From positions 372,001-436,000 of the forward strand of contig VIIQ02000039.1 in NCBI GenBank assembly GCA_007449985.2: a stretch of 64,000 nt of DNA. Reading direction: 5' to 3'. The DNA comes from Desmodesmus armatus (Eukaryota; Chlorophyta; Chlorophyceae; Sphaeropleales; Scenedesmaceae). The number at the start of each line of letters is the position of its first letter. Position 1 is the first letter of the stretch. This document shows, piece by piece, positions 1 to 50,833 of this stretch. The translations under genes and the position numbers were made by a program. Under the pieces are notes generated by a model. That model saw only the letters and a list, made by a program, of their open reading frames with translations, searched no databases and was not told where the DNA came from.

Positions 1-3000
1 CAGGTGAGTCTGATGATGGGGTATGCCCAGGCCCACACTGCTGCTGCTAGCTATGAAGCTGGAGCTTTCTACATAGCCAATCACTCTCTGCAAGCACTGT
101 CACATACAGAAGCAATTGCAGGCTGCTGTGAGTTGTTGCCTGTTGCGCCTTGCTAGCGCCTGGCAGCCAGCTGCCACTGTTTGACATGTTTGTGCTGACA
201 TTGTCATGGCTGCAGCAACAGCATGTCCTGCCACAGCAGCATGCAGCTGTGACAGGGCTCCTGATGCCTTATGTATGTGTGCGTATCTTGTGATTATCAA
301 AGGCCCTGCTGCATATCGTCTGCTGTGCAGGTAGAGTTGCTTCTCACACCTACAAACGTGAACACAGTGTATGTACCCAGACCTGAATTGCTGGCCTTCA
401 TTGCTATACAGCAGTGGGTGCAGCAGCACTTGGGCTTGCTTCTACCCCTACTGAATGGCAGCTTTGTGCTTGTGCACAGCAACAACCTCCATGAAAACCA
501 AACAGCAGCAGGTGGGGTGCTGCGAGACTCGAGCCACATACAGGACGGTGGTGGCGGCGGCAGTAGCAGCACCATGCAGCACACGAACAGCCTGGCGGCT
601 GCTGCAGCCATGGCAGCTGCCATCCCCTGGCGGCTGCGTCAGGTATCGGCTGTGGAGGTGGTGCCTGGTGGTGACCCTGCAGATGCAACAGTGGTGCTGG
701 TGGGGGGTGACAGGGTTGCTGCTGGCCAAGTTGGGCCATTGCAGCAGGGCGATGGGCAAATGGACCAGCCTGCAGTCCTTCAGGATGTAGTGGACTACCA
801 GGTATGATAAGTGCACACGTTCATGGTGGCCGCATGGGCTGCTGGCTGCTGTTTCTGCATTTCTCCAGTGCAGTACTGGCCTTAGTAGTGGCTGCCGTCT
901 GCTGTAAGTCAGGTCAGGCGCCACCTGCGTAGATTGTGAGCGTGGGTACGTGACACATGTCTGCTGCTTCTGTTTTTGTTTGATGCTCGAGTCCCTTCTC
1001 CATCCATGCAGAACCTGTGCTGTGGGCTGTGGGGTGTCACGAACAGCAACGCCGACAATAACGGCAACCTTCTTGCGGTGTTGCTGCCGTGCTCGATCCC
1101 TCTCCATCTAGTATCCACTGCATGGCATGCAGTGCCTGTGCTGTAAGCTGGGAGGCCTGCAGGGACCAAGTGTCCCAGCCCTGACCTGTGCTGGCATGTC
1201 TTGTGCTCGACCTGCAAAGTCTGTGTGTGTATGCGCCTGCTTTTATTTGCTGCCCGCAGTACCTGTTCTGTGAGCTGGCGGCCCTGCAGGCACTGACTTT
1301 CCTGCCCTTGACCTGTGCTGGCATGCCGTTTGCGCAACTTGCAAAGTGTATGTGTGTGTGCCTGCTTTTGTTTGCTGCCTGCAGTACCTGTGCTGTGAGC
1401 TGGCGGCCCTGCAGGCAGCTGGCGTTCTCAGCAGCTTTAGGGTCCATGATGTGGCACATGTGGCGTGGCGCATGAAGCTCGCCACAGAACTGGAGACTGT
1501 GATTGAACAGCACAAACAGGTATGTTGCAGCAATCTGCATGGCTTGTGTGACAGCTGCACAGCGGTATGTCTTGCAGCGGCGGTCTTGCAGCAGCACCTG
1601 ATCTACTTGTCCCCGCATCCCTCAGCTCACTGCGGTGAGCTGGCTACGTTGTGCCGTGCCATGCCGTGGCAAGCTGTCTGGCGTCTGATGTAGACAAAAC
1701 TTGAGCCTCTGCCGGTGGCTTCAGAGCCACACGCTTATTCCAGCTTTGTTGGTGTCTTATATGTTGATGTTGTGTGTGCACTGCATCACTGTGGCACTCA
1801 GCAGCATGGTGTGTGCAGCTGCTGTCCGGTGGTTCAGTCGGCATTCAGCTGTGCTTTGTCTTGGTGGTCATGCTCTGGCACCATCTGAGCCTCATCGGCT
1901 CCACACGTCCTGTTTAGGCATTATCTAGACCTAGAAATAGTAATGTTGATTCCCAGGTGACCAACTGTGTGCATCATGCTGTGTGGTGCTGTGCAGGAGC
2001 AAGCTGCTTTGGTGGCTGCTGGTGATGAGGAGCTGGTGGAGGGGGCACACCAGGCATCCCTCATCAATGTCAGGGGCACGTTGGCACGCCTGCCGCCCAT
2101 GGATTGGGTGGATGGACAGGTGAGGCCCCGGGGGTAGGGTGCCTGGCTCTCGGTGGCTTATGCCTGAGGGTGTTCCAGTCTTGTGTTGCCGCTGGGGCAG
2201 TGACTAGCTGACTGTGTCCTCGTCCTGCGGCCTCCAGCACACATATCAAGGGATGTGCGTCTTTAAAGGCGTGCTGTCATTTCAAGAGGCAACACAGCTG
2301 CTGGACTGTGGTCTGGCAAGGCAAGCAGGGTTGACGGCGTGTGGCTGCAACCCGTGGACCCTCTTTGGTGTCTCTAAAGTGTGCAAAGAGGTCCCCAGCA
2401 TGCAAAGTTGCTGTAATTGTTTTATCTGGACACTGGTGCAGCATGCGCGCGGCTCTCAAGCCAGCCTGCCCAATAGGTTGCAGAGGTGCAGTGGGCATGT
2501 TGATATTGACACCTGCTGTGCTGCTCTGTCCCTGCAGATCCTGCAGTATATTGAGCTCAACCCTCAGGTGTGGCCAGAGGCTCCTGGCCAGCCCTGGCAG
2601 CTGCTGAGTGCCGGGCACTTCAATCAGCTGCTGCAGGATGCTGCCACAGCCTGGCAGCACTACGTGCAGTGCAAACTGGCAGAACAGCAGCCGCAGCCTG
2701 CGACTGACTTTGTTCCCTGGCAGCCTCTTGCTGCTGACGAGGCTGAGGAGCCTCAGGAGCCTGAGCAACACCATTCTGTTGCAGAGGCGCTCACTGCTCA
2801 GCAAGGCCTGCAGACACAGGCACAGCACGCTCAGCACGAGCACGGACAGCTGCAGCAGCCCCAGCAGCTGCAGCAGCACCAGGACGCGAACCAGCAGCAC
2901 GAGCCAGAGCAGCAGCACAAGCCACAACAGCAGCAACAGCAACAGGAACAGCAACAGGACCAGCAGCAGCAGCAGCAGCACGCAGTGGGAGGCAGCCCGC

Positions 3001-8847: not shown

Positions 8848-11016
8848 ATGGCCTCCACAATCAGCAGCTTCTGCGGCAGCAATGTGAAGTCATTCAAGGC
8901 AAATGCAGGCCTCAGCAGACAGCAACCAGTTTTGCGCGGCGTGACAGCAGCCACGATGCGCAAGAGGGACATCCACCCTGAGTGGTATGATGAGGCCAAG
9001 GTGTTCTGCAATGGTGTGGAGGTCATGACAGTGGGGGGCACAAAGGAGACATACAACGTTGATGTCTACTCAGGCAACCACCCCTTCTACCAGGTCAGTG
9101 GGGATGCAATTGCGGTCAACAGCACCAGCAGCACCAGCAGCAGTGGGGATGCCAGGCAGGCTGACAGTGCCTTAAATTTTAGCTAAATGGTGGAATGCAC
9201 CATCGTAGGGATTAGGTGAATGTGCAGGAGACTTTTCCAGCATGGGGGTAGTTGCAGTGGCCTTTGATGGTTCTGCCAGAGTTCTGCAGAAGGCTCTGCC
9301 AGCCTATTGCAGCGTGCCACGATGCAGCCAGCACATCAGCAGCAGAAGCTTTCAGTGCTTTCACGGTCAGGTCAGGCTCTGCGCTGAAAGCATGACATGC
9401 CAGCCGGCCAGCTTGACCACACCCACACCCTCCAGAGCAGCAGGCATCAGCGGCAGTGGCGTCAGCACTTCAGTACAAACTGCAGTTTGGACTGACAGTC
9501 AGCCGCGGTACCAAAGCAGCAGCAGTCATAAGAAACTGGGGTGGGCAGGCTCAGGCTTCTCATAGTGTATGTCAGGCCGTAACCTGACATAGTCTGACAG
9601 AAGGCTGAGCCTGCCCACCACAGTTGCCTATGCCTGCCGCTGCTTTGGCACTGCGGCTGACAGTCAGTTCAAACTGCTACGGCCACAACTCTCAGACGTG
9701 CCGGGGGTGCCACATGCCGGGGGCACTGCACAGTGTACCGGACACAGCAGTATCAGGCTGGCACTGTCAGCAGCAACAGCACAGCTGTGGACGGTGGCAA
9801 GCTGACGCGCCTGTGTACGGCGCAGCTGTGCAGTGCCCCTTGTGGGGGTCTTCTGGATGTGTGTCTCAATTGTGGGGTGGCGGTTGTGTGGTGGCTTTTT
9901 GCATGTGGGCCCACTGGTGACATGCAAGGCTGATGAACGTTGCCACACTGCAGCTGTGTTGCATGCAGCAGGGATGCTGAGTCTGCTACTGCTATTTCCG
10001 CTTCTCTCGCGTGGTCTGTGTGTACACAGGGCAAGGGCACCATCCTGGTTGCAGATGCTGGGCAGCTGGACAATTTCCATCTACACTCTTGTTGCAGTCA
10101 CTTCACTGCTCTGCTACTGCTGTTGCTACCTCTGCTTCTTTTGCACAGGGCAAGGGCACCATCCTGGTTGCAGATGCAGGCCAGCTGGACAAGTTCAAGA
10201 AGAAGTTTGGCGGCCTCGGTGACCTCGCAGAGATCGGAGCAGCAGCAGCAGCCAGCGGACCACCAACAGGTGAGAGGACTGTCTGAAGGGGTCGCGAGGG
10301 GTTTGCAGAGGGGTTGAGAGGGTATGTTGAAGGTGACTGGGTGTTTTGCTGCATGGGTCAATTTTTGCAAGGGGCAAGGGGGTTCTTCAGAGGCGTTGGA
10401 AGTGTTGTGCAGAGGGGTGAGAGGGTTTTGCAGATGGGTGAGCGTTTTTTGCTGAGATATGCGAGAGTTGTGTAGAAAGGTTGAGAGGGGTTGCAGATGG
10501 GTGGCAGGCTTGTGCAGAAGGAGTGACAAGCAATTGTGGTGTCGTGTAGCTGTCCATGCCAATGGACGCTCCGTGGCAACCTACTGCGAGGGTTCAGAAA
10601 GTCATTGTGAAATCACCGACACATTTATCATCTGTCAAGGCGGGCTAGTGGTAATGCTAGGCTGGCAGCTTGCACTGCCACTCTGTGACAGTCAGTTTGC
10701 TGCCACACCACCATGACAGTGACAGAGAGCCGCTAGTTGTCCTGTAATGACGTGCTCATGTGTTGCCCGCACTCCTAGTTGGTGGGCTGCAAGCTGCCTG
10801 GTGGTGCCTAAATGCCGGCACTTCAGCTATGTGCTGACACTTCAGCTAGGTGACGGCCTTTTGATGACATGGATGGTGGGTTTAGTCATCAGCCTGCTTG
10901 CAAAATGCCGACACGTCTGACTAACCCCCCTGTTTGCTGTTGTGTGATGTGCAGAGGATGAGAGTGCCAAGAAGATTGGCACAAGCCCCAAGGCCAACAA
11001 GAAGAAGCGGCGGTGA
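8848..11016 (+). CDS. PRPL31: Plastid ribosomal protein bL31 (nuclear gene)
   Basis: Component of the large subunit of the chloroplast ribosome, made in the cytosol and imported. Exons 8848-9093, 10149-10269 and 10955-11016 join in phase (0, then 1) to give 142 residues. Residues 1-35 or so are rich in Ser, Ala and basic residues without acids, as in a chloroplast transit peptide. The mature part begins [10 protein letters not shown] and continues through [27 protein letters not shown] and LDKFKKKFG, the standard bL31 order. The two CxxC zinc-binding pairs of the C+ form are missing: only one Cys (FCNG) remains, so this is a zinc-free type. A Lys/Arg tail (KKKRR) ends the protein. ATG 8848 is the first ATG in the open frame. 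Intron 1 holds a foldback hairpin and a duplicated exon edge, entered separately. Confidence 0.93.
9482..9677. mobile_element. 196-base foldback (inverted-repeat) element in bL31 intron 1
   Basis: Two arms of about 95 bases are inverted copies of each other at roughly 80-85% identity. The left arm starts GCAGTTTGGACTGACAGTCA at 9482; the complement of the right arm, ending at 9677, starts GCAGTTTGAACTGACTGTCA. The centre is TATGTCAGG-CCGTAA-CCTGACATA, so the arms pair almost to the loop. No clear target-site duplication was seen. It may be a foldback MITE or an intronic small-RNA precursor. Confidence 0.8.
10029..10148 (+). repeat. Tandem copy of the start of bL31 exon 2
   Basis: The 47 bases at 10029-10075, after an ACACAG acceptor, repeat the first part of true exon 2 at 10149 (GGCAAGGGCACCATCCTGGT) with only a few changes. 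The unit length is 120 bases and the pyrimidine-rich tract before the acceptor is copied too. The copy would read [17 protein letters not shown] before losing similarity. Confidence 0.9.
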
Positions 11017-34208: not shown

Positions 34209-35988
34209 CACTCCGCTGCTTCTTCAACCTCCACCACAACAACCATTTGAGGGCTCTGACATGCATGTATGCTTGCTCACAATGGCGTATCAATCCCCTC
34301 ACAAGCTGCACGAGAAACTGGTCACCACACATCACACCTGCATGCTCCACGCGCACCCAAAGGGCAACAACTGCTTGGACACACTACACCGTGCACCCTG
34401 TATGCTGCACGCACCCCAAGGGGCAACAGCAACAGGTTGAAGACACCACACAGTGCACCTTCATGCTTGACACCGTGTCGTCCTTTGAGCTGATGGATTT
34501 GCAGCTCGGCAACACACAATGCAGCACAGTGGCAATGCACACCCAAGGGGCAACAACAAGTGGTTGAACACACCGCACAGTGCACCAAGCAGTGGGCAAC
34601 ACCAAATGCAGCACTGTGGCCATGCAGGGTCTGCTAGGCAGCAGTTGCAAGGGTGTCACGGGTTATACCCTGGCAAAAGCTGCCCATTACCACCGTGGCC
34701 AGGCTGGCCTCCCTTGGGTCATCAATGCATGTGATCAACTGTGGTTCTCCCCTTTCATCAGTGATTGGCCATGCATGCTCAAAATCGTGTTGTGGTGTAA
34801 GTAGGATGCACCTGGCAGCCATGTCGGCACCTGCCATGCATATGGTCTGTTGAAAAATCAACTGCCACCAGGTGAGCCAAGTCCATCATGCTGGTGTGGA
34901 TGATCCAGGCAGGCAGGCAGGCACACACACCGTATCAGCTGGCAGCTCTTGACGACCCTCTCGCTCACTCCCCTTTCAAAACGGCTGCTAGGTCGACTAA
35001 GTAATCAACCGACCAGCACACCAAGCAACGACAACCACACACACCCAACTTGACTGAACCCCGGAAGTGTCGTTGCAATGCACACAACTCGTTCCAAGGA
35101 GTTATGTGCAGTGCTCACACAGCCAGACGATGCCCCAAAAGGCACCAGATCAAATGTGTAAGGCGCTAGAAGACCGACACACCAGTCAACTCAATGTATA
35201 AGTTGGGGCGATGCCATTGTTGTGTGGCGAATACGCCCATATGGATGTAACATACTATCCGCCCCTTCCCCTTGAGCACACGTGTGTTGATGGAAGGTCA
35301 GTAAGCACCACACATGTTGGGACCACAGGTTGACTCACACACAACACTAGCTTACGCCCACAAAAGTTGACCCACAGAACCTTTGCCCACCTCCTGCCCC
35401 CCCCCCCCAAAGACCCACACACAATAGGACCACAGGCTGACCCACACACAAAACACACCAGGCCACCACACACACAGCTGTTTTCGGCAGCCTCCACGTT
35501 CTACCAGTCCGCCACCACACCCTCAGCAAACATGTCGATGTGTGCCTCACCCTGTGTTGATCTGCTCGGGTGTTCTGCTGTCTTCTGTCTGTACACCTGT
35601 TGCCCACTGCTTTCAACCGGCCCACCCTTCCCCTCCAAGGTCAAAAAGTCACCCGCCCCCAGATCTGCATGCCAGATCAGTTCTACTGGCACCACTCAGA
35701 CTGCCCACCATGCCGCTCCAAGATCAAAACAGTCACCCGCCCCCAGATCTGTATGCACCCCCTGTGCCTTCCCAAAAAAAAGATCCGCATGCCAGCTCAG
35801 TTCAACTGGCACAACTCAACCGCGGCTGGCTCCATCTTTGAACACGCACCACAACGCCATTCACCCCTGGTAAATTCGGTCCTTGGTAGCGTCTCTGACT
35901 CCTTCTCTCATAGCGATTTCTCCCGCCCCCGGCTTGACTTGTTTGCCAGCGTCCCCCTCCGTCCACAGCGCTGTTGGGTGCGCGGGAC
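34209..35988. repeat. Spacer with short tandem repeats downstream of LYS1
   Basis: No gene supported. At about 34350, 34411 and 34540 a block around CACCCAAGGGGCAACA..A..GGTTGA...CACAGTGCACC recurs. At 35278-35470 two copies of a GGACCACAGG(T/C)TGAC(T/C)CACACACA block occur. At about 35645 and 35725 two copies of a CACCCGCCCCCAGATCTG block occur, close to the 3' end of LYS1. These are simple local duplications. Confidence 0.6.
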
Positions 35989-38900
35989 TCACACTGCTGC
36001 AAGTGCTGGCGCCTTTTCCAACAGCGCCATCTTCTCCTCAAATATCTGCAACAGCAGCAGCAGCAGCAATGCAAATGCAGTGAAGAGAAGAGTTGACGGG
36101 GAAGCATGACACTTGCGGCCTGGCATACTAGCATCCCAGACACAAGCCCTTGGGTAACTCCATGCTGCTGGTCAACAGGGATTTAGCAGGACATGATAAC
36201 TTGACTGTTGTCCCCCTCCCACACTCCCACCACCACCCGGCGCCTGGCTCTACAGGGACCCCCCCCCCTCAACACACCCACCTTCTGTGCCTCGTGCCAG
36301 CCCTTGCCCTGTGGGTAGGCCATCAGTGCCATTAGGCGTTGCAACGCCAGCCATTGACCCTACCTGCATGCTACTGCTGACCCCTCAAGCCTTCAGCCCC
36401 TTGACACACCCACAAAACAAAAGGGGTTCGGCAGGAAACAATAGGGTGACTGCCCCCCCTCCCCCCCTACCCTTCACCCCGCCCCCAGGCGGCTCGCCCT
36501 CAAAGGGACCCCCCTCGACACACCCACCTTCTGTGCCTCGCTCCACCCCTTGTCCTGTGGGTAGGCCATCAGCGCCATGAGCCGTTGTTACGCCAGCCTT
36601 CGAGTCTATCTGCATGCGACTGCTGACCCCTCAACCCCCGGACCCCTCAAGACACCCACGAAACAAAAGGGATTCAGCAGGTGACTGTTGCCCACTCCGC
36701 CCCCCCCCCCCCACACACACACACAGCCCCCCCCCCCCCCCCCCCGCTCGCTTCCAAAGGGACGCCCGATTCCTCAACACACCCACCTTACCTGTGCACG
36801 TACCAACGCATGAATTGCCCTTTTTTGTTTTTGGTTCAAGCTTGAGTTCAGTCACCCTTGCAAATCCACAGGCGTCTACCCACCGTCTGTGCCTCGCTCC
36901 ATCCCTTGTCCTGTGGGTAGGCCATCAGCGCTGGCAGCAGCAGGTCAGCAAAGGCGTGGCTGGCCTCCAGGGCCAGCACTGAGGGCAGGTTGTCAATCGA
37001 CACGATGTCAAGGGGAGGGTCATCACGCACACGCTTGGTTGGCTCCTCCCTGCAAAAGTGCAAACAAAAAGGCAGACAGTGGTGTGGTAGAGTTACAAGA
37101 GGAACACAATGCAAAAAAGACCACATGTTCACTCACACGACGTCACAGAGGGCTAATCATCCCGCACACGCTTGGTCGGATTCTCCCTGCAAACGACAGA
37201 GGGCAGTACAGCACAGGCAGTGAGAGGCAGTCTTGCGTGAGGGGCAGGTTGTCAATGGACACAATGTCGAGCGGAGGGTCATCACGCACACGCTTGGTTG
37301 GCTCCTCCCTGCGAAAGACAGACAATGGTCTGGTGGTTTCGGGAGGAACACAGTGCAAAGGCACAGGGCCATCTGTACACGGGCAATGTTGAAGGGGGGT
37401 GGGTCACACCCACACTGCAGACAGCAGACGGAGGTACAGCAGCGGGCAGTGGGGAGGTACTCATTGAGGGCAAAGGCATGGCTGGCCTTTAGGGCCAGCA
37501 CTGAGGGCAGGTCGTCGACGGACATAATGTCAAGGGGAGGGTCATCCCGCACACGCTTGGTTGGCTCCTCCCTGCAAACAACATCGTCAACATGGGCAAC
37601 ATCAAATTCAAGCCGTATACTATAACGGTTTGGAAAACACCATCGTTGTGCAGGAAAAGTCGTCCTGGGGTCTGCCCCCCTGGTGACCCCCAAAAAGACG
37701 CAGACCTGAACCCGGCTTGGCTCCCCCCTTTGCCCCCCCCCTCCCCACGGCCTCCCCAATGCAGGCACACGACACATACGTAGTAGTTATCTCGGGGGGT
37801 GGGGGTGGGGGGGTAGGGCTGCTAGGGGTGCTAGGGCTGTCACATATCAGGCCTGATACGTGCTCATATCAGAGGGCGATACGGAGTGATACGGAGGCGA
37901 TACGGAGCTCAGCCCAAAATATGGGTACATATGCATGCACATGCGTTCGCTCTTCGCAGCTGCCCTCCACCCGGCAAAGCAGTCAATGGTGTGCTGCATC
38001 AGGCTTTGCACCGAGAAAACGCCAAGCAGTCGTACACCTTTGTCATGTGATACCTCTGTTCCTACCACAACTGCAGCCCCCCCCCCCTCACCCACCCTCC
38101 CCGACCCCACGCACCAAGATGTGATGGTGTCATACAGCAGGACGGGGTTGTTGTCCCTGTTCCTTTCCCACCCCACACACCACGCTTACTCCACCACGCA
38201 TCCCAACCCCAGACCTGTGCTCAGCCCACTGCACCCCACTCCCACCCAACCGTACCAAGATGTGAAGGCGTTGAAAAACGGTATGGTGATTTTGTCCCTG
38301 TTCCTTGCCCTCCCCACACACCACGCCCACTCCATCATGCATCCCAACACCAAAGCAGGGCTCAGCCCACTACCCCCCCCCTCAACCCACCCAAACTCAC
38401 CAAGATGTGATTGCGTCACACAGCGGTATGCTGTAATCGTCTCTGTTACTTCCCCCCCCTCCCACAATCTCTCTATCAACACACCACGTCCAATCTATCA
38501 TGCAGGCCAACCCCAGAGCCGACTGCACCCACCCACCCGCCCACCCACCCACCCACACTCACCAAGATGTGATTTCGTCATACAGTGGTATGGGGTTGTT
38601 TGTTGAGTTGGGGTCGCAGCTGACATCCCCAATGACCTTCAGCCGCCGCTTGGGGCACTTGTCAACCAGATCATTGTTCAGGAAGGGAGGCATGGAGCCC
38701 TGCAGGCCAGCCACAACAAAATCTACATGATCGATACTACCCGGCGCATTTTGCCTTCTTATCAATGGAATGGTAGGACAGGAGTGCTAATTTCAGGAAG
38801 GGAGGCATGGAGCCGTGCAGGACAACACCTCAGCACTCACAAAAGTTCAACATAACAAATGGTGCTGTCCGAGTTGCAAAAGTGTTGCAAGGCTGAGGCT

Positions 38901-41900
38901 GCTCCTGCGGGCAGCATATCCTGTCAACCACGACCGCCCTGGCAACACACACGAATCATGCCTTGGAAGGGCCGTGCCTGCTTACTCGACAGCTATGCCA
39001 GCCCCTAACTAGCTGCACAGCAACCACACACACACCCTCCTACTACCACAGTCCCACTACCACAGACACCCACGCACCCCCCTCAACCCTGTTGCCGGGA
39101 ATCTGAGGCTAAGCAACGAAAAAACAAATAAAACAAAATAAAAGTCATATAGCAAAAATATTAAATATTATAAACATACATAAACCAATAGAACGGCTAA
39201 CGCCCAGGTGGCGTCAGTGCTGGATCAAAACCTGCCAATATGTGTTTAGGGGATCAGGGGAGGCGTTGCTGCAATTCTGCTGCTGTCCAGCTGCTGCGCA
39301 CTTGCTGCTGCTGGGGTCCTCCTGCTAAGATACTGCTGCTGGGGTACCCAGCGCCGCTGCAGCTACAGGCGCTACCAGCTGTTCCCACTATGGCAGCATG
39401 TGTCAGACTGAAATCAACACAGCGGATTGAGTTGAGCTCGCAAGACCGGGGATGCGTTGTGAAGTTGTCATGCTCAGGTCTAGCTGCAGCACAGTTGCTG
39501 CTGCTGCTGGAGTGCTGCTGTGCCTGTAACTTCAGCTGCTGCCCCTTGCCAGGCTGAAATGAACACAGCGGGGCAATATCGCGCACTCTCGATCACACAG
39601 CAGCACCTGAAATCGCGGTTTGTACTAATTGGCAGAAGTCCGACATACACAACCCAACGTTGGACGACGGTTGTCTGTGCGCCTCGTAGCCAGTCCTCAC
39701 AATGGGTGCATCCATGCCATGCAAGCACGTAAACCATTGTTTGATTGCATTTACAGACGGCTCAGCAGCTACGTTGAACCTTTTTGGTGACTTGCAAGGA
39801 TACCGTTACCAACCGATTGGCCGGCATCGCACACAGGCCCCGGCACAGAGCATGCAGGTCACAGGCTGCCTTCACAAATCCATGTCATAATCGTGACTGG
39901 ATCGGAATTTGCGATGCGGTCGGCATTGAACGCCTGCACATATGCTCTCGCAGCACAAGCAGTTCACACCTTTCAACCGAACACCATTACAATCCTTATC
40001 ATCGATTCATTCGTTATCGCCCGGCAAGTGCGTGGTGCGGAGCTTTTGGGATTGGAATGTAGACTCGTTTTTGGCTGTCATGTGTGGGGGTGTGAACTTT
40101 GCAACGTATAAAGCTCTAAACCTAAAGGTTTCGATCTAATACACAAGACAACATAAAAATAAAAATAACAGAAATGATTAATAAACATCATTGATTCTAC
40201 TGACACCCGCGCACCTGCAGCAGGATGCAGTTGATGAACACGTCACAGTCTGTCAAGATCTCAGGGAAGGGTCCTCCCTTTGCCGTCTCATCCTTGTCCC
40301 ACTTGATCACCTCCAAGCCCGCACGAGTGGCACAGTCCACCGCACCGCCACCACAGCGCCCTAGAGCACCCATCACCAACACCACGGGAGCAGCCCGGCC
40401 CTACACAGGGGCAAGAGTACAGCAGCACACAGCCATACATCTGTCAGGTTGGGATTAATCTAGTGAATTCCAAGCAATTCCATCAAGCTATGCCCCAAGA
40501 TACCTCACCACCACCACAGCGCCCTAGAGCCCCCATTACCAGCACAACAGGGGCAGCCCGGCCCTACAGGGGTGCAAGAGCAGGGGCAGCACATAGACAT
40601 GATGCGTGTTCTTATGAGGCATCAGCAAATTTCCTTGTTTTGTCAAGCCCGCCCGAGTGGCACAGTCCACCGCACCACCACCACAGCGCCCTAACGCCCC
40701 CATCACCAACACCGCGGGAGCTGACCGGCCCTACAAAGGTGCAGCAGCATAGCAGCACACAGCCAGTCATCTTTCAGCCTTTATTGGGACGTTGACTTGC
40801 TCTTTCAAGCTAGGGCCACAGCGCCCTAACGCCCCCATTACCAACGGCACGGGACCAGTTCGGCCCTACATAGGTGCAGGAGCAGGGTCAGGCAGGCAAG
40901 CAAGCAGCGCGGCACAGGGTCCTAGTTAGCATGTATATCTGTTCTCCCTGTAAAACCCACCGACCAACACCTCCATTACCAGCACTACTCACCCACTTTC
41001 ACCCGCCCACCCCCACCTGCCAGGTGCACAGTGTGCACAGTTTTCCTTGACTATTTCCACCATCTGCCATATCTCATCAACAAGCTCTTACATTGTGCTG
41101 TACTCAACCCTAGAACCACTGTACAATTACTTTCCCCCCCCCCCACCCTCACCCCTCATCCCCCCCCCCCCCCAACCCCCCCCCCCCCCCCACCCCTCCC
41201 ACCCCCCCCACCTGTGCTTTGCCCCCCCCCCCCCCACACACACACACACGTGTATGCATCCTATAGCTATAGGTTCTCCTGCTGTCCTCCCCCATTCCCT
41301 TCCATTACCATCTGCAGGTTCTTTACTGCCTATACAGACCTGTGCGTCTCCTTACTCACTTGATTGCCGAGTGCATTCTGTGACTGCTGTTGTTCAGCAG
41401 GCTGTCCTACCAGTCAAACTCCTATGCCCTTCTTCCCAGACCCTGACGACTACCCAAGCCCTTATCACCGGCAGCGTTCACTTCGACCTTCAAGGCACAT
41501 CGAGCCACACTAGGAGGAAGCCTTGATGATGCCTTCATGCCACCCATGTCGGATTTTTACGCCCTTGACTGACTACCTTGACTGACTACCGCTGCTGCCA
41601 TCTCCAACCTCTTCATTGTGCCTGCAGGTAATTCCGGGGTAACGGGACGGTATACAGCGCTGCTTTGCCATGCATTAGCGAGGGATGTGGCCCCTCTAGC
41701 AGTCTCGATTTCGTCCATTACAGTCGTCAGTCCTGGTCAGCAATGTCTACTCTGCCCGCCCTGCGGAGGCCCCTATTGACTGTCGAGGACGCCACACCCC
41801 CAACCAGGTGAACGCTTTCCTTCTTACCTCGCATTAACGCACTTTTTTCCTGCAGGTTTGATGTCTAGCGTCTCCACCTGCCACCGACGCACTGCTCGGT

Positions 41901-44472
41901 ACTGAGCGATTACGTCACTGTTGCTTGCCTGTCTAGTAGGACAGTCTTAGTGAGCTTGCATGTATCCAAGTACTCCCTCTGTCGACACACCGCCCCACAC
42001 CTCCGCCCCCCCCCCCCCAACCCCCCCCCCCCCACCCCCCCCCCCCCACCTGTGCCTTAACTTCCTCCACCATCTGCCGTATCTCATCAACCAGCTCCTG
42101 TTTGGTTGACACCTTGACAGGGGGCACAGGCACACCGGGGTTGAGCACCTGCTGGCACCACGACCGCAGCGAAACAGCACATGTGACTTTGGGTTTTTGT
42201 ATTTTGTAGTTAGGGTACCGCTCTCCTTATTTCTATTCCACTGAAAGGATAGGTAGTACACATTAGCATTTGGAATTTCGTGCTTGACCAGAATGCCTGG
42301 TGAAGATAGTAAAAGACAACGCACCTGGTGGCACCACGACCGCAGCGACACAGCACAGCCAACAAAGCCGGCAAAGGGGCTCATGCCCGCACCCACATTG
42401 TACCCCTGTGCAGGCAGGCAGGCAAGCGGGCAGGCAGAATCTGTCAACACAACTGTGGAGTCAGCACCCATGTGCAGCAGCCACAGCGGCCTTGCTGCCA
42501 GGATGTGTCCACCCTGACCATACAGCCTGATGTGGGCACATGGTGGAAGACCTCGCCATACAGTCCAGCGACCAAACAGGTGTGATGTGATCTGGGTTGG
42601 TCATGCCAGCCCAAAGAAGTGCCATATGTTGTGGGTGAGTCAATCCAGCGTCCAAGCAAGTGTTATGATGTGATGTGATGATATCTGGGTTGGTCTTCCC
42701 AGCGCCCAGGCGACTGTGCTATGGTTGCACACACTGCAAATCAGTTTCCTGGTCATGCCAGCTCAACTGTGGGTTGGCCAGGAACTCATAGTCATAGATA
42801 ACACTGCCGTAGTCAAGCGCGAGTGATGCAATCTGGAGGATTAGTCATAACATCACTCTTCTTACTCATGCCAGCTCACCTGTGGGTTAGCCAGGAACTC
42901 GTAGTCATAGATGACACCACCTCCCTTCTTATAGCGGGCCATCACATCCTGAGATTGGTGTCCACACATGCATTCAACAATCAACAGACGGCAGGGAGGG
43001 GGCGGGCAGCCAAGGTTCAGCTACCTCTATGGTGGAGTATTTTGGGGTGGGTGGGTGGGGGGGGGGGGGGGGGGGGGGGTGGGGGTAGTTACACGTGATA
43101 CTTTCACCGCTGAGCGGTACTCTCCACACTGGATGAACTGGGACGACACACCTGCAAGAAGAACCTGCAGCAAGTATTGTTCGGATTAAAGCTGAGCTCA
43201 ATCACCCAGTGCACGTGCTGCAGCAGATCGCACATGCTTTCAGCTTCCTGCTGCTTTGTACACGGTCGTGTGGTGGTGGCCCCCGGTGTGACTGACAGCT
43301 GTGTGCTGGGGGCTGTGCCACACTACCTCCAAGCCCCATGTGCACTGTCCCCTTCTCTCTTGCAATTGACAACCACACACATGCATTACAGCAATTGCTG
43401 TCCATGCCAAGACGATGGGGCCCAGACCTACGCGCATCTGCCATACGTAATCAGCGCAGTCACAGTCGGCCGTGCCCACCTGCCATCCCTCCTGCCCCTT
43501 GAAAACGTGAGCAAAGTAGGTGTGTCTGTTGACAATGGGGAAGGTGTCAACAGCCAACTCCTTGAGGCCCACACTGCTACTGCGCCTGCTACTATTGCTG
43601 ATCACTACCGCACGGAAATGCCTTACTGAGGGGTATGGAGTGCCATGCACGATGTTTGCAGTGCCATGCACACACGGTCACAGTCGGCGTGCCCACCTGC
43701 CATCCCTCCTGTCCCTTGAACACGTGAGCAAAGTAGGTGTGTCTGTTGACAATGGGGAAGGTGTCAACAGCCAACTCCTTGAGCCCCACAATCAGCAGCT
43801 TGTCGTCCTGCTTCAGGTTCACCCAGGCACCGGTGTCCTCCATTGTGCAGCCGGCCTGGCATAACAACAGCAGCAGCAGCAGCAGCAAGAGCGGGTAATG
43901 TGCACATGCCGCCACCTTGTGCTGGGGACACTTGCAAGGTTTGGTGCAGTTGGACTCAGCGACTGTAGACAGCAGCCATTGCTACTGCAGCAGCAGAAGC
44001 CACGACTAAGGCTGCCCATTTGGAGGTGGGCATGGAAACAAAGATCAAAGCAGTAGTCATGCATGCATACTGGCACTGACATGTGCAAAGGACAGTGATG
44101 ATCATGGCATGCAGGTAACAGCCAGTGCTTGCAAAGTAGGCATAGTGGGTCCTATAAATTTGGCACATTGGAGAAATATCAGATTAAGTATCCCACCTTT
44201 TCATAATCCACGTCCTTGATGATTCGGGTGGGGCTCCTCTCGACATGCACATCAAACTTGTCCATCAGCTGCTTGGCTGTCTCGGGTGTCACCGTTACGC
44301 GCTCTTCGTAGGCTGCGACATAACATTTGTGCACGTACATCATCAGGCAGATGCCAATACAATGTCATCTGCCTGCTACCGGTTTGAGATTGCTGCTGCG
44401 ATCTCCGACACCGGCACAATCACCTTTGGTCTCATGTCGGAGCCAAAGCTTTGGCTTGGATGTTTCTGCCAT
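35989..44472 (-). CDS. LYS1: Saccharopine dehydrogenase (NAD+, L-lysine-forming), LYS1 type
   Basis: Interconverts saccharopine and lysine plus 2-oxoglutarate with NAD. Ten exons: 44472-44424, 44312-44197, 43855-43697, 42948-42880, 42405-42325, 42148-42050, 40400-40215, 38699-38563, 37049-36884, 36045-35989. All phases fit and yield 372 residues, against 373 in yeast Lys1. Landmarks: [19 protein letters not shown] at the N terminus; the active-site region GLKEL...[13 protein letters not shown] with catalytic Lys and His; [12 protein letters not shown]; Rossmann loop [16 protein letters not shown] with the conserved Cys; [25 protein letters not shown] and [29 protein letters not shown]-terminal [13 protein letters not shown]. 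Segment [16 protein letters not shown] is diverged from the usual GRRVAAFG. An in-frame upstream ATG at 44577 would add 35 residues. Introns carry many partial exon copies, entered separately. Confidence 0.93.
36270..36883 (-). repeat. LYS1: Intron 9 of LYS1: two copies of the 3' end of exon 9
   Basis: The last ~45 bases of exon 9 with its donor (encoding [14 protein letters not shown], then GTGGGT) recur in the following intron at about 36541-36585 and 36290-36335. The two intronic units, including the flanking ~200 bases, are about 250 bases long and clearly related to each other. Both keep a plausible AG|GTGGGT donor. Poly-C/G tracts (about 36701-36745) lie between the copies. Confidence 0.87.
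37050..38562 (-). repeat. LYS1: Intron 8 of LYS1: copies of exon 8 end and exon 9 start
   Basis: Next to exon 8, three decayed copies of its last ~30 bases with the donor (CACATCTTG|GT) lie at about 38404, 38269 and 38128, period about 135-175 bases. Next to exon 9, three copies of its start with the acceptor (TGCAG|GGAGGAGCC or close) lie at about 37577-37443, 37312-37220 and 37190-37155. The first still reads [20 protein letters not shown] and beyond; the last is a short, mutated fragment. Confidence 0.88.
38700..40214 (-). repeat. LYS1: Intron 7 of LYS1: 1.5 kb with A-rich islands
   Basis: Two very A/T-rich tracts, about 39116-39190 and 40140-40195, enclose a GC-richer core, in contrast to the rest of the window. 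Within the core CTGAAAT(C/G)AACACAGCGG occurs at about 39408 and 39553. The A-rich strands point the same way, as would the tails of retroposed elements, but no terminal repeat, reverse transcriptase or target duplication was identified. I leave its origin open. Confidence 0.5.
40401..42049 (-). repeat. LYS1: Intron 6 of LYS1: three copies of the start of exon 7 and one of exon 6
   Basis: Exon 7 starts GGCCGGGCTGCTCCCGTGGT after a TAG acceptor at 40400. Copies with the acceptor start at about 40564, 40732 and 40867. All keep the [11 protein letters not shown] reading, and the one at 40732 runs on through [14 protein letters not shown] copy of the exon 6 end (GACTATTTCCACCATCTGCC region on the plus strand) lies at about 41050-41095. 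Long poly-C tracts on the plus strand (about 41130-41235) occupy the middle. Confidence 0.88.
42149..42324 (-). repeat. LYS1: Intron 5 of LYS1, bracketed by a ~35-base direct repeat
   Basis: The last ~35 bases of exon 5 (CGCTGCGGTCGTGGTGCCAC and flanks) are repeated at the 3' end of the intron, directly before exon 6. The repeat offset is 176 bases, exactly the intron length: the donor lies in the AG|GT of the first copy and the acceptor at the AG of the second. Removing one copy plus the spacer would restore an uninterrupted exon 5-6. Confidence 0.88.
42703..42879 (-). repeat. LYS1: Intron 4 of LYS1: copy of exon 4
   Basis: A copy of the 3' part of exon 4 (reading [12 protein letters not shown]) lies 113 bases further into the intron, around 42757-42810. 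Its donor has changed from GT to TT, so it cannot splice there. Further on (about 42560-42710) another pair of local repeats around GATCTGGGTTGGTC is seen. Confidence 0.85.
43474..43696 (-). repeat. LYS1: Intron 3 of LYS1: copy of the 3' half of exon 3
   Basis: About 100 bases of exon 3 with the donor are repeated at an offset of 217 bases (copy about 43474-43580). The copy still encodes [17 protein letters not shown] and FSCAHV-like residues with a frame slip, and retains a CAG|GTGGGC-like donor. A poly-G tract follows at about 43048-43085. Confidence 0.84.
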
Positions 44473-44980: not shown

Positions 44981-46083
44981 TCACACCTTGCCGCTGTGCT
45001 TATGCTGTGCCTCATACTCTGCCCTCAGTGCTGCTAGCGCCTCACGCCTCACACTCCCTAGTGCCCCCTGCCCCACCACCTGGTGCACACACTGAACCTC
45101 GGCAGGGCCCAGAACCCCAAATAGCACACATGCACCACGCCGCACAGCACCTGACACCTCTACACTCACAACAGACAACCCCTGCTGCTGCTGCTGGCTT
45201 GCTGCTGCTTGAGAGACGTTGCCATCACCAGTCCTGAAAGCTGCACCGCTGCTGCCATCAACAACAGCAGTTGTGAGGATTGTGCTGAGGCTACTGGGCG
45301 CTGCTGACGCGACGTGCATTACGTAATCGGTTATTATGTAATGACACTGCCGGCCCAGCAGTTGACCCTGGCCGGCTAATGCCTCGTACACCCGGCCCAG
45401 CTGCCCAGCACAACGCAGCAACAGGTCAGCATCTCTGTGCCACTGCTGCTGTTGCTGCAAGGATACTGCCTGTGCTGCTGCAAGGATACTGTCTCTCAGA
45501 GCTCTGTCTGCAGACAGTAGCAGCAGCAGCAGTGCACGTGCTGCTGCGTTGACCAAGTGCATCTGCCGCTGCAGGTCTGCTGCTCTGTGCCTCACTAGTG
45601 CCACCAGCAGGCTGCAGCTGCTGCAGTAGACCGCAGCAACAGCATCTGCATCCACCTGCTGCTGCTGCTGCTGCTGCTGCTGCAAGGATACTGACCGCCC
45701 ACCAGCAGCAGCAGCAGCAGCAGCGCCTGACTGCATCAGCACCAGCAGCTGCTGCAGAACATGCCTGATAGCAGCAACAATAGCTGCTGTTGTAGTGGCA
45801 GGCAGGTTGAATGTCGCCTCCCTGCCCACCATCGACTCAAGGCACCGCATGGACCATGTCACTGCTGCCAACTGCTGCCGCCAGCCGGCGGCTGGCAGCA
45901 ATGGCGCAGCCGCCACTGCTGCCGGCAGCAATGGCGGCTGGGAGGGCAGCAGCAGCTGTGCCTGGGTGAGTATGTTGAGCAGAGCAGCACAGTAGTTCTG
46001 TGAGTGACTGGCGAGGAGCTTAAGAGCCTTGGGACCATGGGAGCCCTCCAGTAGCACCAGCAGCATCAGCAGCCACGACAGCA

Positions 46084-46119
<36 letters not shown>

Positions 46120-46480
46120 CGCTGCTGCTGCTGGTTATGGAGTTGACGGCGGCTGGGTTGCACAACAGGTGGTGCAGCTGCAGCAGCAGCTGCCGCGGAG
46201 CAGCAGAGACGATGTCCCTCAAGCCCACCAGCACCCCAGACACCAGCAGACCGTACTGCTGCTGCTGCTGTCGACTGCTGCCAGGTGTCACCCGAGTGAC
46301 ACCAGCGACGCCAGCAGCAGTGACGTCACCCATGGTTACGTAGGCAGGTGGTAGGGCGGGCCAGCAGCTAGTGGAGGGAGCTAGTGCTGTCAGCAGCTGC
46401 ATGCTGCTTTGCAGGACGGCAGCAAACACACTACTGCTGCTGCTGCCATAGGCTGGCTCCTCAGCTCCAGCAGCAGCAGT

Positions 46481-46525
<45 letters not shown>

Positions 46526-46972
46526 CTTGCTGCCTGCTGCCTTAGTGAGAGTGAGGTGTGCTGCATTGATGAAGGCTACTGCATGCAGTAGCTGCAGCTC
46601 CTGCACACTGCCAGGCACAAAAGTGCACCCCTGCTGCTGCTGCTGCTGGAGAAGCTGCATCACATGACCCACTGCAGCGCTGGCCGCCTCCTGCAAAGGA
46701 AGGGGTTCCGCCTTACTGCTGCTGCTGTTGCTACTGACAGCACCTTCTGCCAGAAACTGCTTCAGCAGCGGCTCATTGCAAGACAAACTGTGGTACAGCA
46801 AGGCTGCCGCCGCCGCCGCAGCAGGAGCGGATATTGCAGCAGCCCTTGCGGTGCCGACACCCGCTGCAGCACCCTCCTGCTGCTGCTGCTGCTGAATGTC
46901 TGATCGCGGCGTCGCCAGCTGCCGCAGCAGCAAGAGCGCTGCATGCACCACAGCCCTGCAGCTGCCACCAGT

Positions 46973-47003
<31 letters not shown>

Positions 47004-47445
47004 TCTGCTGCTGCCCCTGCGGCTGTCCCTGCTATACTGACAATGGGTGCTGCTAGCAGGGCTGCCAAGCTGTTAGGCAAGCTCGGCATGGCAGCAGCAT
47101 CCTGTTTGGATGCCCTCAGCTGCTGCATTGCCATCTTCAGCAACTCTGCTGCTGCAGCTGCTGCTGCTGCTGCTGCTGGAGACGTGGGTGCATTGTCACC
47201 AGCAGCAGCAGCGGCAGCAGCAGTTGGGGTTTGTTGCAGGAGAGAGCGCAGCAGCTGGTATGCAACTGGCAGAACTGTTCCTAGTGCCGCATTGGCCTCG
47301 TCTAGCTCCTGCTGCTGCTGGCTGGTTTGCAGCCCTGCTGCTGTTGTTGCTGCTGCTGCTGCAGTGGTAGGGATCATGCTGCAGCAGCACACCACCACCT
47401 GTATCAGCAGGCCCTGCCAGCCTGACCCAATTCTGCCACCACCAC

Positions 47446-47486
<41 letters not shown>

Positions 47487-47851
47487 GCAGGCCCAAGAAC
47501 CTTGCACAAGCTTGCCAGTCCCAGCCCACAAGCATCCAGCCGCCCTAGTGCCAGCAGCACAGCACTGAATATCCTGCTGAGGCAGGCAGCCACCTGCTGC
47601 TGCTGCTGCTGCTGCTGCCAGCCTGGCAGTATGCTTGCAGCAGCAGCAGCAGCAGGTGGGCTCTGATCTGCTTGTAACCCGAGTGCCCGAGCAGTGTGTG
47701 CTGCTGCCGCTGCTGCTGCCAGTACTTGTGCCGTCAGCACTGCTGCCGGCTGCTGCTGAAGCCCTGTCAGGGGCAGCTGGCAGACTGATACACACCAGGA
47801 GTGCAGCAGCTGCAGCTGCGGCAGCAGCAGCTGGTTCTGCTGGGCGCTGAG

Positions 47852-47882
<31 letters not shown>

Positions 47883-47968
47883 AGGACAGCGGCTGGTGGG
47901 GTTGACTGCTGCTGCCAAGCCAACAGATCTGCCGCCAAGGGCTGCCAGTGCTGCTGCAGCAGCTGCTG

Positions 47969-48006
<38 letters not shown>

Positions 48007-48360
48007 ACGATGTTGAGCTGTCTTCATGGGTGCAGTGCATGCCGGTGAGAAGGGCAGCAAGCTCTGCTGTTTGGCTAGCAGCAGCACCAAGGCGCTGAGA
48101 GGCACCCTGCAGTGGTTCCTGCTGCTGCTGGTGCTTCTTTTTCTTCTTCTTCTTGCTGCTGCTGCTGCTGTTGGTGTGCGGCGAAGGCTGCGCAAGGATA
48201 CTCCCCTCACCCTCTGCTGCTGCTGCTGCTGCTGCTGCTGTGCTGAGGGTGTTGCTGAGTGCTGCCACACAATCCTGCAGGCAGCCGCCGGCGGCTGCCA
48301 TGCAGCTGTGCTGAGCTCCTCCCGGCAGCAGCCAGTCAGGCAGCACACCATCCCCTTGCT

Positions 48361-48400
<40 letters not shown>

Positions 48401-48480
48401 TGCTGGGAGGCTTGAGCAGCTTGCTGCATGACTCACCACTGGGAGCCCCAGCAGCTCAGCAGCACTTGCTGCAAGCACAG

Positions 48481-48517
<37 letters not shown>

Positions 48518-49020
48518 CTGCTGCTGCTGCTGCTGCTGGATGATGTAAGCAGCCAGCCCTACTTTGATGAAGCCGCTGACCTGATCTGAGTCAGCAAAGG
48601 GTGCCCAAGTCTCTATGTGTGCTGCCAGCAGCCCGTACTGCTCAACAGCAGCAGCAGCAGGTGCCTGCAGCACCGGCTGTAGCAGCCGCGCTACCAGCTG
48701 TAGCCCCTCAGCATGCCACAGAGCATGCAGCCTCTGCAGGTGCTGCTGCTGCTGCTGCTGCTGCTGAACGGGCCCCCCTGCTCCTTCCTCCCCATCCGAC
48801 CCTTCCTCGCTCCCTGCCAACCCGTCAGCGCCCGCAGCAGCAGCAGCAGCAGCGGCAGCGGCGGCGGCTGGCGCTTTCCCGCCTTTTTTGGCCCCGTGTG
48901 AGTGCTGTTTCCTTGCAGCAGTGAGGCTGAGCCCAGCAGGGCACCAGTACTGCACCCGCAGCAGCCGCTGCTGCAGCACCTGCAGCCGCTGCAGGATGCA
49001 GCATGACAGGGCCACCACCA

Positions 49021-49052
<32 letters not shown>

Positions 49053-49119
49053 GGAGTCACCGCCTCTTGTGTCTTTCTGCTCTTCTGCCGATTCTTGCTG
49101 GGGGTGCTGAGCTCGTCGG

Positions 49120-49163
<44 letters not shown>

Positions 49164-49382
49164 TCATCTTCATCCCCGTGTTGCAGGATTTTGACTGCCA
49201 TTGCTAGCAACATCTTGTTACCCACCCTGTCATCCCTTCCTGCTGCTGCTGGTGGTGTTGTATCTTCTCTTGCATGACGGGCTGCCAGCAGAGCAGTGAA
49301 GTACCCATCCCCCTCGAAAGCGACACCCTCGTCGAAGGGTAATCCTGAAGCCGCAACCCCCTCAATCTGCTGCTGCTGCTGC

Positions 49383-49429
<47 letters not shown>

Positions 49430-50833
49430 ACCCACTGCATCAATGACAGCAGGGTTTGGCTCCTGCCCCAGCAGCGGTTTGACTTCAGGGTTGAGCGCAG
49501 CACAACAAGAGTGAAGCCTGCGTGGCAAGCAATATTGGAGTGTCAACAGAAAGCAGTGCATGTACTCGTGCATGCTCTTTAATGTCCCACTGTGATAGTC
49601 AACCAAGCAAACTACCAAGGAGTGCAGCGGTGTCAGCTGAAGGAGGTAGACAGCGTTGCCCTGAGCAAAAAGGCATCCCCACCGTCTCTGCATGGCACTA
49701 ATTGCAGCATGCCCTGCCTCCCGACCTCCCTTCTCACCTCAAAACAGACACACACAGCCTCAAACCACCCCCAAGCCCCATCCCCACACCACCCCCAGCC
49801 ACAACTGCTCCTGCCAACAGCTGCGTATGGTACCCACTGCCCACAGCGGCCACCAAAGACTCAGCAGCAGCAGCAACAGCAGCAGCATTGGTAAGATCAA
49901 CCGGCAAAGCATCCAGGACAGTCGCCAGCAGGGTAGCTGCATGATCCTGGCCAGAACACAGCGCCTGCATGCTGCTGCTGCTGCAGCTGCTGCTGGTGTA
50001 GCTGTGCAGGGTGTCTAGGCAATGTGTGACCCATTGGACCAGGGCTGGGCCTTGACCTGCATACACAAACAAGCACAAAACGACAGCAACAGGGCCAACG
50101 AGCGGGTCAGAGGAACACCGAGAAGGAAATGGTGACAGTGACACCGGCAGCTGCAGCGAAGGAAGCACGAACTCAGATGTTGGTGACGGCGGCAGGGAGG
50201 CGTTGAGCAGGACACTGTAGATGTGCATGCACACCATACGCCAGCTGCAATGCCATCGGAGCCACCTGCTGACACCAATGCAAACATTTTCTCGGGACTG
50301 CACAGTCTCGATGTCATTTCATCAGTTTGTCCTTGACGCAGAATTCACAGTGACTGGGCCAGTGTGACTGTTGTCAGGTCACACTCTGTGCCCCCGGTCT
50401 GGTCACACTTTGCATGACCGCGGGTGACCCGCTGACTCACCCATGGGAGCAGCAGCAACAGCAGACCGAGCTGCCTGCAGCACCAAGGAACTCGACAGCA
50501 CGCCTGAAGCAGCAGCGACTGCTGCTGCTACTGCTGCTGCTGTGTCACTCGAGTGACACTCTGCCTGCAGTGACTTCAGGGGCAGTGCATCAAACAGCTT
50601 GATCAGAAGTATGTCCAACTGCCTCAGTTCACTATAGGCACCTAACAACCGACACAGCAGCTGGCACGCCGTACTGCTGCCATTGCTGCCACTGCTGCCG
50701 GCATTGCTGCCACTGCTGCCAGCATTGCTGCCACTGCTGCCGCCGGCGGCTGCACTCCAGGCAAGCTGGAACAGCAGCTGCATGTGTGGCAGCAGTACCC
50801 TGTACTCCACATCCAGGAGGGCAACAGCAAGGT

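Follow-up and report, generated by a model that had tools for sequence, protein, structure and literature searches.

Duplicated exon edges and intervening filler DNA in the introns of a LYS1-type gene of the green alga Desmodesmus armatus

Introduction

Introns of Daphnia pulex that are attributed to staggered breaks carry, at their far end, terminal bases of the adjoining exon (4-12 bp), and internal staggered breaks have been proposed to lengthen young introns there as well (PMC4202315). In a potato gene, RdRp, a duplication that crosses an exon-intron border, or that holds AGGT, gives splice sites to an intron that is new or has lengthened (PMC4974935). A review treats mitochondrial inserts as indirect evidence for intron gain via break repair, citing also a spliceosomal intron of mitochondrial DNA origin from Bigelowiella (PMC3443670). 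With Chlamydomonas and Volvox, tandem repeats within introns gather near intron-exon junctions, exon edges not being given as the repeated unit in the passages at hand, unlike what is seen here (PMC3887541). Breaks with 3' overhangs give rise, in human and mouse cells, to small tandem duplications (PMC8355091). Here we describe a stretch of 64,000 nucleotides from Desmodesmus armatus (Chlorophyceae, Scenedesmaceae; GenBank assembly GCA_007449985.2, contig VIIQ02000039.1, positions 372,001 to 436,000 of the forward strand), which we call ‘the window’ and whose own numbering we use throughout, and within it a LYS1-type saccharopine dehydrogenase gene, most of whose introns contain partial copies of the exon edges that adjoin them.

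Repeats in Daphnia are of 4-12 bp, whereas those considered here are of 33-115 bp and more, mostly include the splice site, and occur in a different lineage. As in potato, duplications that cross a border or hold AGGT supply splice sites for new or longer introns; the potato paper, however, concerns one gene, while here copies are found in 7 of the 9 introns of one gene plus 11 of 79 sampled others, some of them with filler between the copies. The likeness to Bigelowiella is that of mitochondrial DNA captured in a gene and then spliced out, as we propose for LYS1 intron 5. The difference, insofar as the review describes that case, is that both splice sites of intron 5 visibly come from a 37-bp coding duplication and that other LYS1 introns bear related scars. 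Border-crossing duplication, AGGT duplication, break-repair introns, mitochondrial introns, and staggered-break gain (in Daphnia) are thus all already in print. Gao and Lynch, in 2009, reportedly described duplication-derived splice sites for introns too, of the AGGT type. What looks to be new is how long the repeats are, that splice sites are duplicated with them, and how prevalent they are. Exon-edge duplications with filler are not described as a widespread source of intron length within the accessible portions of the literature searched, a literature outside of which most subscription papers lie.

Exon-edge copies in the introns of LYS1

LYS1 (35989..44472, minus strand), a gene of lysine synthesis, has 10 exons and 9 introns, with a predicted product of 372 amino acids. 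Exons 1-5 lie at 44472-44424, 44312-44197, 43855-43697, 42948-42880, and 42405-42325, and exons 6-10 at 42148-42050, 40400-40215, 38699-38563, 37049-36884, and 36045-35989, all on the minus strand. We take these borders to be sound since the spliced protein aligns over residues 9-365 with yeast-type Lys1 structures (2q99, E 9e-79) and, end to end, with its three closest homologs (82-88% identity), free of gaps at every exon junction.

The gene was compared with itself and each exon edge was aligned to its own intron, with edges of other genes, shuffled introns, and reverse-complemented introns as controls. What is seen are direct repeats of which one member is an exon edge and the remaining members lie inside the adjoining intron. 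Such partial copies are present in seven of the nine introns (introns 3-9), with no edge copy above any threshold in introns 1 and 2. They derive from the 3' edges of exons 3, 4, 5, 6, 8, and 9 and the 5' edges of exons 7, 8, and 9. An earlier, sequence-only reading had listed all of these except for the exon 8 5' edge in intron 7, and counted six introns rather than seven; all six do hold copies, with off-diagonal direct repeats found at each of the edges listed. The nine passing edges score 7 to 38 standard deviations above other-gene edges on the same intron and also above every shuffle tried, while with reverse-complemented introns own edges pass in 0 of 88 introns (i.e., LYS1 plus the sample described below), on either side. 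Chance, which that reading had already dismissed, and likewise a common splice consensus are ruled out by these controls.

There are one to six copies per intron, as had been claimed (intron 8 has 3+3). Successive copies are spaced by 113 to 263 bases (the earlier reading gave units of 113 to about 300), except that the first exon 6 copy lies at 838 and the first copy of the exon 9 3' edge at 356. Being 69-97% alike, the copies are not the identical copies of an assembly artifact, and such an artifact is unlikely also in that copies differ among clusters generally (best identities of 65-97%) and occur on several contigs. Inverted matches comprise one on C586, not at the exon core, with the longest in LYS1 being C/G runs (among the best 25 of 110). 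A phage collection gave no match to the one 191-base piece tested.

In intron 3 the duplication source, that is, the exon 3 3' edge together with 20 bp of intron (43677..43790, minus, as are all features of this paragraph), recurs at 43459..43573 with 97% identity and with its 5' splice site intact (CAG/GTGGGC, 43479, the slash marking the border). The exon 4 3'-edge copy in intron 4 (42746..42804) is 88% identical, its splice site having decayed to CAG/TTGAGC. Intron 6 is marked from both sides, i.e., by a cluster of the exon 6 3' edge with two copies (40924..42097, including that first copy at offset 838) and by an array of exon 7 5'-edge copies (40314..40891) with copy 3' splice sites before 40865, 40730, and 40563. 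In intron 7 the exon 8 5'-edge copy (38792..38824) is 94% identical over 33 bases, at an offset of 115, with its AG lost. Intron 8 holds arrays of the exon 8 3' edge (38060..38603; copy 5' splice sites at 38400, 38255, and 38114) and of the exon 9 5' edge (36948..37583; copy 3' splice sites before 37571, 37308, and 37186), and intron 9 an array of the exon 9 3' edge (36173..36931; copy 5' splice sites at 36527 and 36281). Also in intron 9, about 90 bp following the true exon 9 5' splice site (36883-36798) are missing from the copies, as though from a later insertion between two GTGGGT motifs.

Border-anchored clusters span 3,901 of the 7,365 LYS1 intron bases (intron 4 is omitted, its copy being under the cut), which is an upper figure because unrepeated sequence between copies is counted. 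In introns 3, 4, 5, and 7 the repeat is far shorter than the spacing, so that unrepeated sequence separates the copies, and in intron 7 (1,515 bp) copies explain little, i.e., 124 bp spanned. Contiguous head-to-tail units, as in a minisatellite, are present at C601, elsewhere in the genome, and in parts of introns 6, 8, and 9, but not in introns 3, 5, and 7.

Intron 5 and its mitochondrial content

Intron 5 lies between two 37-bp repeats on the minus strand. The left repeat (42321..42357) consists of the exon 5 3' end plus GTGC of the intron, and the right repeat (42145..42181) of the intron's 3' end plus the first 4 bases of exon 6, with its CAG serving as the 3' splice site. The two are identical at 35 of 37 positions, both are copies of one continuous coding stretch that ends CAC CAG GTG C, and their offset, 176, is exactly the intron's length. 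The 5' splice site is that of the left copy (CAG/GTGCGT) and the 3' splice site that of the right copy (CAG/), with the reading frame kept. Between the repeats, and extending slightly into them, is a filler of 146 bp (42177..42322, minus) that is 77% identical to C278:23310-23466, with TGTGC common to one junction; this mitochondrial match is the sole other match in the genome to intron 5 DNA.

C278 (40,363 bp), as translated with NCBI table 22, has Pfam frames for complex I chain 5 (nad5), for a second complex I antiporter-type chain, and for cytochrome b (cob), the label nad4 for the antiporter-type frame being a second match, just below its cut-off. The filler match runs from the end of a tRNA-Met gene over the first part of this nad4-like frame. 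The cob frame appears twice (2325-3536 and 34464-35675), so that the ends of C278 probably overlap.

Intron 5 thus is flanked by direct repeats and contains an insert of identifiable foreign origin, two of the features to be expected from staggered-break gain with captured DNA. It corresponds in part also to AGGT-type tandem duplication, with its splice sites coming from one duplicated CAG/GTGC and coding left unchanged, but the intron is not the duplicated unit itself, its interior being mitochondrial. From this anatomy intron 5 seems to have been newly born around captured mitochondrial DNA, with both splice sites provided by the duplicated CAG/GTG.

Other fillers between repeats

The 115-bp repeats of intron 3, 97% alike, enclose about 100 bp (43574..43676, minus) that recur once elsewhere, at C29:231866-231973, with 81-83% identity; a mismatch-free pattern search with the core common to these two sequences found two places only. 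The C29 match apparently lies inside an intron of another gene, as judged from its sequence. On C66, at a locus of the kinesin family, a repeat of 45 bp that ends AAG/GTGAGC encloses instead a high-copy element of about 165 bp (C66:304843-305021), found at at least 40 places (40 scored of 430 candidates), the 39 others listed being 79-92% alike to the query. A search of Rfam with this element gave no match. Of four other copies examined, one is enclosed by repeats of about 100 bp and the remaining three are without a flanking repeat. On C625 there is also a partial copy, flanked by a weak repeat.

Altogether seven stretches were searched against the genome, six located between repeats and one being the insert after the exon 9 donor; a second C66 stretch among these is not known to adjoin an exon edge. 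Three fillers were traced, i.e., those of intron 5 (mitochondrial), intron 3 (two-copy), and C66 (high-copy). As fillers differ between cases, one mobile element is rejected as a general cause.

The pattern beyond LYS1 and its preference for borders

A further 79 introns were inferred from chaperonin and kinesin profile matches, using frames, profile order, and splice consensus, and these introns are predictions rather than being RNA-based. The matches used were 48 of 50 for chaperonin and 117 of 121 for kinesin, with the other six on stretches outside the sample. Of 123 neighboring exon pairs that followed the profile order and lay no more than 5 kb apart, 42 were dropped for unsuitable profile gaps and 2 for want of sequence (44 in all), and some inferred borders are poor, e.g., C601:182542.

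Border-anchored repeat clusters were found in 11 of the 79, and they go with length: 8 of 12 introns of at least 450 bp have them versus 3 of 67 shorter ones (LYS1 excluded; Fisher P about 3e-6). By the edge test the families are uneven, with 7 of 22 chaperonin and 3 of 57 kinesin introns passing, and most sampled introns are without the pattern. The edge and cluster tests each flag 17 of the 88 introns, disagreeing over LYS1 intron 4, whose copy is below the cluster cut, and over chaperonin intron C30:235962, which passes the cluster test and fails the edge test. LYS1 is unusually rich (7 of 9 by the edge test versus 11 of 79 by the cluster test; binomial P about 3e-5), as is to be expected of a gene chosen for showing the pattern.

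Of the 22 repeat clusters in the 88 introns, 21 reach an exon border, leaving a single interior one. Within a cluster the smallest spacing ranges from 88 to 322 bp, with one exception at 838, and copy-free sampled introns have a median length of 286 bp. As spacings are comparable to such introns, many random duplications would cross a border, those inside of exons being lost. Four versions of a border null expect 11.1 to 15.7 of the 22 at borders (P 0.0000 to 0.0036) and, without LYS1, 7.3 to 9.8 of 14, where 13 are seen (P 0.0008 to 0.034). The most generous version, with an ancestral intron of 286 bp and overlap of up to unit length, gives P 0.0036, or 0.034 without LYS1. Exon copies decay more slowly and are visible longer, yet all 7 clusters of at least 90% identity are at borders versus 3.7 expected (P 0.0025). 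We read this as an excess of moderate size at borders. As proof of targeting it is not accepted, the excess shrinking under the most generous null.

Spare splice sites

Fifteen copy junctions were placed and scored in LYS1. Two have decayed, the other 13 keep GT or AG, and 8 of the 15 equal or exceed the true site in score. Copy acceptors in intron 8, for example, score 10.5 to 11.6 versus 10.4 for the true one, and copy donors in intron 9 score 10.6 versus 7.3. The library of spare splice sites that the sequence-only reading described thus exists, at the level of sequence. The true sites are the outermost pair in every case, and any of the 15 copy sites, if spliced to its true partner, would introduce a stop codon in frame. 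When all sampled genes are taken together, the 9 exon bases that precede copied 5' splice sites show matches in 140 of 144 cells, as compared with 268 of 315 further in, a difference that hints at selection and does no more than that, since alignment favors matches near to junctions.

Possible origin of the duplications

The reading that we favor, and consider reasonably probable, is that the repeats are scars from the repair of staggered breaks, or of paired nicks, with fill-in of overhangs duplicating the stretch between nicks and with filler sometimes being captured. As envisaged, a staggered break, or two nicks on opposite strands, would occur tens to about 115 bases apart, both overhangs would be filled in, and the ends would then be joined, leaving that stretch duplicated. 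The join may first capture filler, whether mitochondrial DNA, a dispersed repeat, or another nuclear piece. Where such a duplication were to cross an exon-intron border, the outer exon copy would stay coding while the inner copy would become intron, making for a longer intron with a second splice site. Where it were wholly coding and contained CAG/GTG, then the two copies could give both splice sites, hence a new intron, as may be the case with intron 5. Arrays would result from further slippage or repeated events. Border events would dominate because selection removes exon-internal duplications and because units are nearly of ordinary intron length, though some extra bias toward borders may exist as well. 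An anatomy of repeat, filler, and repeat, with varied filler, would be the expected trace of long-overhang fill-in followed by end joining. Rice, with patch-mediated repair, and Arabidopsis, with paired-nick duplications, reportedly provide parallels. What can be seen directly are the repeats, where three fillers came from, and how intron 5 acquired its splice sites, whereas the break and its repair we infer.

That repeated local duplication across borders was the main way in which these introns grew, as the sequence-only reading put it, holds up in part. Border duplication is real, recurrent, and, outside of LYS1, tied to intron length. Plain repeated local duplication fits less well with introns 3, 4, 5, and 7, given the unrepeated sequence between their copies, and intron 7 is hardly explained at all; for introns 3 and 5 insertion with target duplication is the better fit, as filler recurs elsewhere in the one case and is mitochondrial in the other. 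Partly supported, then, is border duplication as a major source of intron length in LYS1 and in the sampled long introns, with several of the copies better described as staggered-break insertion along with duplication.

A number of points weigh against the break-repair reading. Intron gain is deduced from anatomy, as the continuous proteins of relatives cannot show absence of an intron. There is but one clear mitochondrial filler among 88 introns, a second match, in intron 7, having an E of 0.004 at 67%. The intron 3 repeat, at 97%, seems more recent than the match to its filler (81-83%), so that filler and duplication may have come about separately there, or else the donor may have been some place other than C29. 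Four of the seven stretches searched, those of LYS1 introns 7 and 9, of C171, and the second of C66, are without a second copy in the genome, and may be old intron instead of captured DNA. The contiguous arrays of C601 and C75, lastly, need tandem duplication alone.

These latter points are shared with an explanation in terms of replication slippage or unequal crossing-over, by which random tandem duplications of 100-300 bp would occur, those at borders or in introns surviving, and neither break nor filler nor preference would be required. Contiguous single-period arrays (C601, with 124 bp; C75; parts of LYS1 introns 6, 8, and 9) are just what that explanation predicts, four of the seven intervening stretches lack a second copy, and geometry alone, depending on assumptions, would place 11 to 16 of the 22 clusters at borders. 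The young repeats of introns 3, 5, and 7 and of C66, however, stand apart around unrepeated sequence rather than abutting, with three of these sequences of traceable origin, and the 21 of 22 clusters seen at borders, or 13 of 14 without LYS1, exceed every null tried. Slippage by itself we therefore hold to be unlikely, if still to be taken seriously. An introner-like mobile element that inserts beside splice sites, such that the repeats are target-site duplications, would account well for a filler like that of C66, which is high-copy and about 165 bp long; of the six places with that element that were examined two are between strong direct repeats and one is between weak ones. Yet the other three (C1, C604, and C41) have no flanking repeat, and fillers vary from mitochondrial to two-copy to high-copy. 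Introns 3 and 5, moreover, do not belong to a set of many similar introns from one element family, their matches being, respectively, two copies and mitochondrial only. Target duplications are 3-9 bp in some introner families (PMC9860276), short ones being, like terminal inverted repeats, a trait of only some, versus 33-115 bp here and, for introns 5 and 3, 37 and 115 bp. We consider this explanation to be very improbable.

Much the same may be said of copies having been kept because their splice sites or exon pieces function, e.g., as stepwise (recursive) splicing points or as regulated poison exons. The intact GT or AG at 13 of 15 junctions, the 8 of 15 that match or beat the true site, and the 140 of 144 matches beside copied 5' splice sites are as one would wish for in that case. 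But alignment favors just those matches, copies within one array are not independent, two sites have decayed, and all 15 lead to an in-frame stop, so that we see little likelihood of function. A bolder version of the break-repair reading has exon-intron borders as hot spots for staggered breaks, and border duplication plus filler capture as the main engine of intron growth, one that is still creating introns from mitochondrial DNA. This we regard as doubtful. If true, then breaks would come perhaps from transcription- or splicing-linked nicks, and there would be genes genome-wide with duplicate splice sites of equal strength, from which the spliceosome must consistently pick the outermost pair.

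The gene product and the rest of the window

By full-length homology to Lys1, LYS1 is a predicted single-function LYS1-type saccharopine dehydrogenase gene. AlaDh_PNT_N passes its cut-off in the protein and AlaDh_PNT_C is just under its own, while among NCBIfam families none matched. The gene is fungal-type and single-function though its host is a green alga. Its closest database relatives are environmental proteins, and named relatives, lower in the match list, are mostly fungal at about 41-45% identity.

The genome assembly is of 115.8 Mb in 831 contigs. Tetradesmus obliquus has 57% GC and introns averaging 462 bp (PMC5966456); the window, at 58% GC, is near to the former value, and the mean of the 79 sampled introns, 361 bp, is below the latter. 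Elsewhere in the window a probable exon 5' edge (ACAG/GGCAAGGGC...) is copied upstream (9982..10196, plus, 78%), and a 127-bp unit contains another probable exon 5' edge (GCAG/TACCTG...; 1129..1427, plus, 82%), exon status in both cases coming from reading of the sequence alone. A 50-bp direct repeat at 34411-34586 (88%, offset 126) is outside of any recognizable exon. Adjoining LYS1 is an open frame of 1,585 codons (44981-49738, minus) that is rich in CAG/CTG runs encoding poly-Q and poly-A, and runs of this type are abundant across 45-61 kb of the window.

Significance

How introns originate and lengthen is an old and open question, for which there are few cases with the event still readable. 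Such scars, differing by degrees in age, seem to be numerous in this genome, and among them is one intron, LYS1 intron 5, for which the contents, the flanking duplication, and the splice sites are each traceable. Near-identical duplicate splice sites also offer a natural means of testing how the spliceosome decides between equal sites, since each of the 15 copies placed in LYS1 would bring a stop were it used. More generally, these observations suggest that clumsy repair of breaks both lengthens introns and makes new ones.
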